This document shows positions 6,639 to 49,559 of a stretch of DNA of 64,000 nucleotides, one piece after another. This stretch comes from Janibacter sp. HTCC2649. Lineage in GTDB: Bacteria; Actinomycetota; Actinomycetes; Actinomycetales; Dermatophilaceae. How positions within the stretch are numbered: the stretch's first letter is position 1; each line of letters opens with the position of its first letter. A model generated the notes under the pieces. The model did no database searches. It worked only from the letters and a program-made list of their open reading frames with translations, and was not told the origin of the DNA. The position numbers and the translations under genes are program-made. The stretch is taken from the NCBI RefSeq assembly GCF_000152705.1, contig NZ_CH672413.1, positions 558,001-622,000 of the forward strand, written 5' to 3'.

Positions 6639-6710
6639 CGCCCGTCCTGCACGAACTTGCCCGCCACTCCCTCGTGTGAGACCTTCGGGTCAGAGCCTGG
6701 GACCAGGCTT

Positions 6711-6753
6711 CCGGACGAGGGGCGCCGTACCCGGCACGCGACAAGACGGCCCG
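6711..6753 (+). promoter_or_regulatory. Guanidine-III riboswitch (ykkC-III class)
   Basis: The stretch contains CCGGACGAGG (6711-6720), GCGCCGTACCCGG (6722-6734) and ACAAGACGGC (6741-6750) in this order. These are the conserved blocks of the guanidine-III pseudoknot aptamer as known from Thermobifida fusca, with only small length differences in the linker. The ribosome site AGGAG at 6755-6759 follows directly, so folding of the aptamer can mask or release it: guanidine binding is expected to turn translation on. The downstream gene is an SMR exporter of the guanidine (Gdx) subgroup, the best-known client of this class. Confidence 0.92.
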
Positions 6754-6768
6754 CAGGAGTGTCTCGTC

Positions 6769-46875: not shown

Positions 46876-47067
46876 GTCGGCGGTCCGTCCTCGCATTGCG
46901 TGGGACGCGCTAGCTGTCCTGCGGTCTGCACGCGCCCACGAATGCTGCGCGCTCAACTCTCGTTGTCAGGCGCGCCCAGACCTTCGGCCAGACGCACGTC
47001 CCACGTAATGCCACGGCCGACCTCGCGTCACGAGTTGCTGGCTCTTCCCGGGTCTTGGGGGGCGCGG

Positions 47068-47250
47068 CTAGCTGTACTGACCCGACAGGTTGGTTAAGCG
47101 GGTGATGGGTGGCTTGTTCCCGCAGGCGGTGTGGGGTCGGTGGTGGTTGTACTCGTGGAGCCATGCTGGCAGAGCTTGGCGTCGTTCGGTTTCTGAGGTG
47201 TAGCAGCGGGCGTATCCCCACCCGTCGGCCATGGTGCGGTGGAAGCGTTC
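47068..47250 (-). pseudogene. IS481 transposase, 3' fragment (residues 269-328)
   Basis: The minus strand encodes ERFHRTMADGWGYARCY at its upstream end, the catalytic-Glu motif and following helix of IS481 transposases, and ends RLTNLSGQYS. It continues in frame from the 5' fragment that stops at NGKI (48614) if the IS110 is removed. Glu269 is the third acid of the DDE triad. The fragment has no start of its own, so it is silent unless the inner element excises precisely. Confidence 0.93.
47073..47095 (+). repeat. IS481 terminal inverted repeat, left
   Basis: Begins TGTACTGACCCGACAGG and is the exact inverse of 49517-49539 over 23 bp. The duplication GCTAGC abuts it at 47067-47072. The transposase stop codon (47068-47070 on the minus strand) falls inside that duplication. 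Confidence 0.95.
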
Positions 47251-47266
47251 GATGCTCCTATGTTCG

Positions 47267-48379
47267 TCAAGCGGCAGTTTCGACCGTGCGCGCGAGTGGG
47301 TCCGCGATGGCGGGTGTGGGCAGGTTGTTGAAGACCTCGCGGGCGATGTAACGCTTGAGGCACCGGATGATCTCGCGTTTGCTCAGGCCCTCGGCGGTTC
47401 GGCGCTCGACGTATTCACGAGTTGGTTGGTGGTGGCGCATCCGGACGAGCGTGACGATGTACAGCGCGCTGTTGGCGGCCCGGTCACCACCTCGGCTGAG
47501 GCGGTGTCTCCCGCGGGTGCGGCCGCTGCTGGCAGGTTGAGGCGCGACACCGCAAAGCTTCGCGAACGCGGCCTCGTTGCGGATCCGATCAGTGTTGTCA
47601 CCGGCGGTGACGAGGAACTGGCCGGCGATCTCTACTCCGACGCCATGCAGCTCCAGCAGTTCCGGTGCAGCCGCCTGGACGAGGGCCTCGATCTGCTTGT
47701 TCAGAGTCTTGATCTCGGCGTCGAGGCCCTTCCAGCGGCGGGCCAAATCCCGCAGCGCGGTCTTGACCCCTGCCATCAGCATCCGGTTGGGGTCGTGGGC
47801 CAAAGACTGCAGGTCATCAGTTTCCGGACGTAGCCCGAGGCAGCGGTTGACTAAGGTTCGTTTGCTGAGGATCACCAGTTCGTCACGCAACGGTGACGGG
47901 GAACCGATCATTACCCCGAACAGGGTGTTGAACGCCTGCGTGCGCGCTTTCACGGCACTGGTGCGGGTCACTCGTAAGGTGCGGATCACCTCAACGGCAC
48001 CGGACTTGGCCTTCGGGGTTGCTGTCGACGTTTCGCCGAGTACGGCGCGCGCGATCTGCTCGGCGTCCAGGCGATCAGATTTGCCATCCATGCGCCTGGC
48101 TGCCCGGTTGGGTCGGTTGACTTCGACCACTCGTTCACCAGCGGTCGTGAGCGCCCTGGTCAGCGTCGCGCCGAAGGAGCCGGTGCTCTCGACGCCGATT
48201 GCCTGCACGGTCCCGTGCTGGCGAATCCAGCCCAGGAGCGCCTGGTAGCCCGAATCGTTTGCCGGGAACTCGTGGTGGCCGAGCAACCTGCCGTGGTCGT
48301 CGATGGCTGCTGCGTAGTGGGTGTGCTTGTGGGTGTCGACGCCGCCAATCACGGTGACAGTCGCGGTGGTGGTTGTCAT
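47267..48379 (-). CDS. IS110-family transposase (DEDD recombinase)
   Basis: A 370-residue recombinase. The N-terminal RuvC-like DEDD domain starts VIGGVDTHKHTHYAA (Asp15), with AIGVESTGSFG and KSDRLDAEQIARAV supplying Glu and further Asp residues. A coiled-coil segment (RRWKGLDAEIKTLNKQIEAL) links to the C-terminal Tnp domain LLELHGVGVEIAG and PQPASSGRTRGRHRLSRGGDR, where the catalytic Ser is expected. Length and motifs are intact, so it appears functional. Start ATG 48379. IS110 recombinases act with a bridge RNA that pairs with both donor and target. Confidence 0.95.
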   Translation of the reverse strand: MTTTTATVTVIGGVDTHKHTHYAAAIDDHGRLLGHHEFPANDSGYQALLGWIRQHGTVQAIGVESTGSFGATLTRALTTAGERVVEVNRPNRAARRMDGKSDRLDAEQIARAVLGETSTATPKAKSGAVEVIRTLRVTRTSAVKARTQAFNTLFGVMIGSPSPLRDELVILSKRTLVNRCLGLRPETDDLQSLAHDPNRMLMAGVKTALRDLARRWKGLDAEIKTLNKQIEALVQAAAPELLELHGVGVEIAGQFLVTAGDNTDRIRNEAAFAKLCGVAPQPASSGRTRGRHRLSRGGDRAANSALYIVTLVRMRHHQPTREYVERRTAEGLSKREIIRCLKRYIAREVFNNLPTPAIADPLARTVETAA

Positions 48380-48426
48380 GCTGGATTTCGCTCCTCCGTT
48401 AGGGCTGATCTGACGGATGCGGCGAA

Positions 48427-48598
48427 CCGGCCGGACGGACGACAGGTCTGTGACGGGGCTTCTAGTCCAAGCTCCTATCAGGTCAGTTCCGTCTGGCCGG
48501 TGCGCGCCACGGCGCTGCACCAGCACCGGTCGACAAATCGAACGCAGGACACCTTGGTCATACCTTGGCCGGGGTCAGACCGGGCCGGTGCAGCGCCT
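48427..48598 (-). ncRNA. Bridge RNA of the IS110 element
   Basis: Read 5' to 3' on the minus strand, two stem-closed loops follow each other. Loop 1 is closed by GGCGCTGCACCGG (48585-48597) with 48511-48529. It contains CAAGGT (48567-48562 or 48556-48551; left target guide, pairs with CAAGAT allowing G-T) and GCGTTCGAT (48545-48537; right target guide, exact complement of ATCGAACGC at the insertion site). Loop 2 is closed by 48488-48500 with 48427-48439. It contains ATAGGAGC (48478-48471; left donor guide, identical to the element's right end) and TCACAGA (48453-48447; right donor guide, complement of the left end TCTGTGA). The order of the four guides and the length of about 172 nt match IS621. 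Its promoter would form only in the excised circle. Confidence 0.85.
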
Positions 48599-48613
48599 AC
48601 CAACATGCTCACA

Positions 48614-49417
48614 GATCTTGCCGTTGGTCTGCGGACGGCGGGGTCGGGTGCGGGAGTGCTTGATCCCGAGCTCGGCGCACAGGTCGCGCCACAGGTGCGA
48701 GATGTAGGCGGATCCGTTGTCGGACAGGACTCTGCGTGTGGTGATGCCACGGACAGCGAACCAGGCGACGGCGCGGCGTAGGACACCAGTGGCGGTCACG
48801 GCGGTTTCGTTGTCGTGGACCTCGGCGTAGGCCACACGAGAGTGGTCATCGATGACGGTGTGCACGAACGCGTGGCCCATCTTCGGCTGGTAATGCTTGT
48901 TCCTCGGTTTGCCCGGGGTGCCTGCCCGGTTCTTCCCGCCTTGGGCTCGGCCCACGAAGCGCCACCCGCCACCGTCGGGGATGTTTCCGAACTTCTTGAC
49001 GTCCACGTGCAGCATGTCCCCGGGGCGCTCGTGCTCGTAACGGCGCACCGGCTCCCCGGTGGCACGGTCGACGTGCGCCAACCGGTTGAGGTGGCACCTG
49101 GTGAGCACCCGGTGCACTGTGGAGGGTGCAACCCCCACGTGTGCGGCGAGCTGGACCGGGCCCAACCGTTTGCGCAGCCGCAACGACACGATCCGCTTCG
49201 TCGTCGAGGGAGACGTCTTGGCGGGCATCGCGTGTGGACGGCTCGAGCGGTCGCTCATCGGTTCACCAGCGGCGTACCGATCGGCCCATCGCTTCACCGT
49301 CGGCCAGGAACATTGGAATCGTGCCGCGACCTCGCTGATCGGGACTCGCTGATCGACGACGAGCTGAGCGACCTTGAGCCGGTGACGAACCGTCAGAGCG
49401 GCGTTAGCGTGGGACAT
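48614..49417 (-). pseudogene. IS481 transposase, 5' fragment (residues 1-268)
   Basis: Starts at ATG 49417 and is intact to residue 268. It has the helix-turn-helix (VPISEVAARFQCSWPTVKRW), catalytic Asp139 in MLHVDVKKF and Asp233 in RVLSDNGSAY, and the conserved RPRRPQTNGKI. Reading then enters the IS110 and stops after about 13 foreign residues (CEHVGRRCTGPV). The third catalytic residue, Glu269, is on the far side of the insertion, so the protein as made should be inactive. Precise excision of the IS110 would restore a 328-residue transposase. Confidence 0.94.
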
Positions 49418-49516
49418 GAGGGCCTCCTGTGTGTGGCAGTGGTGACTTGGCAGTTCCACTCCACCGCGGGAGGCCCTTCCCGCGCCACTGATCAGATCAG
49501 CGGATCGCAATCACTC

Positions 49517-49539
49517 AACCAACCTGTCGGGTCAGTACA
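49517..49539 (-). repeat. IS481 terminal inverted repeat, right
   Basis: Exact inverse of 47073-47095 over 23 bp. The second copy of the GCTAGC duplication follows at 49540-49545. No mismatches between the two ends suggest a recent insertion. Confidence 0.95.
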
Positions 49540-49559
49540 GCTAGCCTCTGGGGGTGGCG

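Follow-up and report, generated by a model that had tools for sequence, protein, structure and literature searches.

Several insertion sequences of the IS110 family are known to settle in other mobile elements. For example, IS4321/IS5075 (IS1111 group) and IS1383 insert specifically in such elements (cited in PMC11208160), and in ISEc21, of which ISMch6 is a redirected relative, the guide RNA leads the element to codons surrounding the second Asp of IS3 transposases (Siddiquee et al. 2024, PMC11187229). Here, we analyzed a 64,000-nucleotide stretch of the genome of Janibacter sp. HTCC2649 (contig NZ_CH672413.1, forward-strand positions 558,001 to 622,000; hereafter the window, from whose first base all coordinates are counted), in which an IS110 element interrupts the transposase gene of an IS481 element. 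Our analyses suggest, with a probability of about 0.88, that the bridge RNA of this IS110 element carries target guides for the DNA encoding Gly-Lys-(Ile/Val)|Glu-Arg, the motif around the third catalytic acid in DDE (Asp-Asp-Glu) transposases of the IS481 family, and directs insertion there (vertical bars mark the insertion point).

Insertion before the catalytic Glu codon

The IS110 element covers 1,363 bp on the minus strand (47251–48613), from the left end TGTGAGCATG to the right end CATAGGAGCATC, its limits having been set by comparison with three empty IS481 sites and with a second, identical copy elsewhere in the genome. A first-pass annotation of this DNA was right to place an element here, but its bounds (47245–48620) lie 6–7 bases outside the true ends. 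The host IS481 element (minus strand, 47073–49539) has kept its 23-bp inverted repeats intact, is flanked by the left (47067–47072) and right (49540–49545) copies of a 6-bp target duplication, GCTAGC, and exists in four copies in the genome, of which three are uninterrupted. Its transposase gene is split into a 5' part running from the ATG to Ile268 (48614–49417, minus strand), which carries the Pfam rve domain and matches the NCBIfam IS481 model NF033577 (254 bits for the host transposase, cut-off 224), and a 3' part starting at ERFHRT (47071–47250, minus strand), which matches Pfam rve_3. When joined, the two flanks are identical at 199 of 200 bases to the three uninterrupted copies; the intact transposase has 328 amino acids, and the Glu of its NGKIERF motif is residue 269, the third catalytic acid. 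Codon 268 (Ile) closes the 5' part, and the GAA codon of Glu269 (47248–47250, minus strand) opens the 3' part right after the element. The first-pass annotation, in naming Glu269 and in placing the insertion between NGKI and ERF, is exact to the codon, as the uninterrupted site of the three empty copies shows.

This position recurs well beyond the locus. The second copy of the IS110 element in the same genome, 100% identical to the first, lies at GGCAAGGTC|GAACGC, which codes for HPQTQGKV|ERFQQT in another IS481-family transposase; the two host transposases are about 30% identical over the left flank and have little in common beyond the motif. Relatives were drawn from genome contigs, family genomes, plasmids, and an order sample, with repeats removed, and gave 21 insertions readable on one or both sides for the clade of the window element, which reaches down to about 62% protein identity (the left flank was not readable in L014 and L054, nor the right flank in L051 and L127). 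GK(I/V)|E of an IS481-family transposase is the site of 20 of these 21 insertions, 18 of them beyond the two of the Janibacter genome itself, and because the second identical copy and these 18 further insertions share the motif, the siting is more than chance. The clustering at the NGK-E codon that had been predicted from the window alone was thus borne out once the sites were tabulated. The interrupted transposases are diverse, with identity to that of the window as low as 28%; all 13 left flanks scanned matched the IS481 model and rve, the right flanks scanned matched rve_3 in 14 and rve_2 in 2 of 18 cases, and the only invariant columns of the left-flank alignment are D, D, R, D, N, and G. 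Left flanks keep the target's own codon (ATC, GTC, GTG, or GTA), and the right end of the element supplies ATC. Mycobacterium triplex carries exactly two identical IS110 copies, in two transposases of different type. At the left junctions of L011 (2450–2490) and L041 (2240–2275), which are two different elements in different hosts, the sequence reads AAA-GCATC|TGTGAA, where GCATC corresponds to the element's own right end.

The hosts of these insertions include Nocardioides, Janibacter, Arsenicicoccus, Mycobacterium, Mycolicibacterium, Agromyces, Cellulosimicrobium, Lentzea, Acidipropionibacterium, and Acidimicrobiia. The broad range foreseen in the first-pass annotation therefore holds for IS481-family transposases in varied hosts, but no insertion with the same guide was found in an IS3 transposase, where sister lineages with other guides are inserted instead. 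The clade is rare: sampling 396 genomes at the level of the phylum and 396 at that of the order yielded one new relative; the phage collection gave no match to its guide-RNA region, and viral contigs contained four ISEc21-like relatives or fragments and none from the window clade. In the tree, the window clade forms a single supported branch, in which one member is off type, separate from the ISEc21-like branch, which is also supported.

The recombinase and its predicted guide RNA

The element encodes an IS110 transposase/recombinase of 370 amino acids (47267–48379, minus strand), assigned by Pfam PF01548 and PF02371, NCBIfam NF033542, and alignment. The Pfam domains DEDD_Tnp_IS110 (83.1 bits) and Transposase_20 (64.7 bits) both score above their cut-offs, as does NF033542, the model for the IS110 "RNA-guided transposase" (198.7 bits, cut-off 140), and D15, E64, D102, and D105, which we take from general knowledge of the family to be the catalytic DEDD residues, are conserved in all five aligned relatives. 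The long noncoding region lies upstream of the transposase gene, which stops 16 bp short of the right end; the long downstream region typical of the IS1111 group was not found in this element, and members of the window clade do not insert behind the second Asp codon of IS3 transposases, as ISEc21-like elements do. In most relatives, the stop codon of the transposase gene is embedded in a TTGAC sequence, whose position would suit the −35 box of a promoter that the joined ends might form.

Folding and compensatory changes point to a predicted bridge RNA (seekRNA) in the upstream noncoding region (48429–48613, minus strand), with a target loop and a donor loop on two hairpins. These 185 bases from the left end have a minimum free energy of −86.5 kcal/mol (z = −3.0 against shuffles), and among 16 relatives 12 base pairs, almost all of which belong to the first hairpin, are kept through changes on both sides; the stems change in compensated pairs, but the guides are nearly fixed. 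No bridge-RNA match for this region was obtained from Rfam at the gathering threshold. In the first loop, sequence, alignment, and left flanks suggest a left target guide, CAAGGT (48562–48567, minus strand), matching CAAG(A/G)T of the Lys-Ile/Val codons, where the G tolerates A or G. The predicted right target guide, GCGTTCGAT (48537–48545, minus strand), rests on the sequence, the alignment, the right flanks, and the pairing table; it lies in the loop of the long hairpin, is the exact reverse complement of ATCGAACGC, which comprises the element end and the Glu-Arg codons, and would pair with ATC GA(A/G) CGC, as the first-pass annotation had held in proposing that a target guide covers the Ile-Glu-Arg stretch. 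The second loop matches the element's own ends: sequence comparison and alignment place there a putative left donor guide, ATAGGAGC (48471–48478, minus strand), the same as the right end CATAGGAGC, and a putative right donor guide, TCACAGA (48447–48453, minus strand), the complement of the left end TCTGTGA. Over the 6 bases compared, the right guide leaves at most one base of the target unpaired in 16 of 17 cases. Across targets, the third base of the Glu codon is A or G and faces a U of the right guide, and wobble also fits the Lys and Ile/Val positions in the window clade.

On the basis of these matches, we propose that the recombinase and its RNA would bring the circularised element to a stretch of about 15 bp at the motif, with AACGGCAAGATC|GAACGC as the target and the bar as the expected insertion point. 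There it would be inserted in a single orientation, with the Ile/Val codon on one side and the catalytic Glu codon on the other, which would inactivate the host transposase and leave the IS110 element inside another mobile element. Target choice was presumably favoured by transposase genes being dispensable, multicopy, and mobile.

Guide-target covariation and competing explanations

Relatives with 42–50% identity comprise the ISEc21-like clade and a small actinobacterial lineage. The former is inserted after HSD of IS3 transposases (HSD|QG or HSD|RG, at the second Asp), and all 31 right flanks scanned match the IS3 model; the latter is inserted before NAMAES or NPFSES (D|NAMAES), the third-acid (Glu) motif of IS3, in five of five cases scanned. 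When guides are shuffled among all elements, an element's own guide matches its target at 4.94 of 6 positions against a shuffled mean of 3.55 (p = 5e-5). Within the ISEc21-like clade, Gln guides occur 25 times at Gln and once at Arg, and Arg guides nine times at Arg and never at Gln (Fisher p = 1.4e-7); among tree-independent guide switches, five of six go with a target switch and none against (two-sided p = 0.06), and the Ser codon type of the left guide follows the target (14/6 versus 0/7, p = 0.002, uncorrected for kinship). For example, in one Paraburkholderia genome L071 has the guide CAGGG at Gln and its close relative L077 has AAGGG at an Asn codon. Another element, L065, has the guide AATGG at a target reading AATGG. 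L065 and the L071/L077 pair are ISEc21-like elements re-aimed to HSD|NG motifs. Transposase targeting is not common to all IS110 elements, because other relatives insert elsewhere. A single copy, L031, is inserted before the motif NSRLHGHCGDIPP, by eye the C-terminal part of an IS3 transposase, and an ISEc21-like copy in Citrobacter freundii (L079, 2100–3640) is flanked by an IS3 transposase on the left and by unrelated DNA on the right, an arrangement such as recombination between copies would leave. Wobble was rejected as a rule for pairing in general, as the ISEc21-like clade often has a C opposite the third base of the Gln codon, which is unable to pair with CAA.

Several observations count against guided insertion as the source of the pattern in the window clade. 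The left target guide matches over only about 6–7 bases, and the junctions of L011 and L041 are two bases longer than expected. The guide is nearly fixed in the IS481-targeting clade and gives no covariation signal there (shuffle p = 0.41), so that the covariation raised in the first-pass annotation does not show within that clade, although it is clear in the sister clade. One insertion, L050 of Actinopolymorpha, lies at DNGKV|ECFCGM in DNA without a visible transposase; it is also at a guide match, AACGGGAAGGTC|GAGTGC, where two right-flank bases depart from the guide, both wobble-capable. Selectivity in the Janibacter genome is incomplete as well: 12 of 16 exact 12-base CAARRTCGARCG sites are outside transposases, mostly at in-frame K(I/V)ER of other genes, with 4 in unoccupied IS481-type transposases, and the longer pattern GGNAARRTNGARYG has nine sites, 5 outside transposases and 4 inside. 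The guide enriches for transposases without being exclusive to them, and transposase genes are greatly over-represented among its matches.

Such figures lend some weight to the idea that insertion is far less choosy and that copies survive only in dispensable transposase genes, the pattern being one of selection, since more than half of the own-genome guide matches lie outside transposases, yet 20 of 21 insertions are inside them. We consider this improbable: selection alone would scatter insertions along transposases and intergenic DNA, whereas all of them, including the sole one outside a transposase (L050), are at one codon boundary, in one orientation, and at a guide match. Selection may nevertheless add to the near-absence of insertions in other genes. 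It is less probable still that the recombinase protein itself recognises the DNA of the catalytic motif, with the RNA matches incidental. The nearly invariant guide makes the roles of protein and RNA inseparable within the window clade, but close relatives in the sister clade change target codon together with guide (L071 versus L077; L065), and RNA guidance has been demonstrated for ISEc21 (PMC11187229) and IS621 (PMC11208160). As for common descent, in which a composite IS481::IS110 would have spread as a unit from one original insertion, the site is indeed common to all close relatives, but identity among the host transposases falls to 28%, whereas IS110 copies within one genome do not differ, and uninterrupted copies of the host IS481 are present in the same genome; we rejected this explanation, the hosts being too unlike.

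Guide matches, covariation in the sister clade, and the experiments on ISEc21 and IS621 together suggest that the RNA directs insertion of the window element, and the first-pass reading of one mobile element parasitising another by RNA guidance is supported. The second own copy, with the same guide, turned out to be at GKV|ERF of another IS481-family transposase and not somewhere unrelated, and relatives also show the guide match, two points on which that reading had been made to depend; its further suggestion that transposase sites are advantageously "safe and mobile" is an inference. Elsewhere in the window, positions 6690–6755 match a guanidine-III riboswitch aptamer (67.3 bits, gathering score 36).

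Comparison with known guided elements

Taking the lineages together, we see even odds that much of this IS110 branch is specialised on DDE transposases, with separate lineages aimed at different active-site motifs (the third Glu of IS481, the second Asp of IS3, the third Glu of IS3, and perhaps the C-terminal part of IS3) and naturally re-aimed through changes to a few guide bases, and that G-U type wobble at degenerate codon positions in the window clade lets the RNA read a protein motif and not one fixed DNA sequence. RNA-guided transposons are seen here to land repeatedly on those codons of rival transposons that are under the tightest constraint; such sites are many, occur in many hosts, and cannot easily be mutated away by a target that is to stay active. 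The pattern also suggests that IS481 and IS3 elements may have natural suppressors in IS110 elements. The natural guide-target pairs, including those of re-aimed close relatives, also provide material for the pairing rules of bridge recombinases.

A literature search, with most subscription papers and all preprints outside it, found no paper on IS481 targeting or on the third acid. As far as the literature searched goes, a separate clade whose insertions target the IS481 catalytic Glu, the IS3-Glu lineage, and the guide-target covariation are new, whereas the principle of catalytic transposase codons as guided targets is already partly known from ISEc21. The predicted RNA of the window element has the layout of published IS110 bridge RNAs, with two loops carrying target and donor guides. 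Like IS621 and other bridge-RNA IS110 elements, the window element combines a DEDD and Transposase_20 recombinase with a left-end RNA bearing target and donor loops (Durrant et al. 2024, PMC11208160); unlike it, IS621 targets repetitive extragenic palindromic (REP) sequences and not transposase genes (PMC11208160). The closest counterpart is ISEc21, also an IS110 element with an upstream guide RNA (seekRNA) that is inserted in the catalytic-residue codons of another DDE transposase with the same codon-boundary geometry. Its right end, GGGCGTC|, resembles GGAGCATC| of the window element, and the proteins of the ISEc21-like clade are about 42–48% identical to that of the window. On the other hand, ISEc21 is directed to the second Asp of IS3, whereas the window element, with different guides and in Actinomycetota, is inserted at the third acid (Glu) of IS481.
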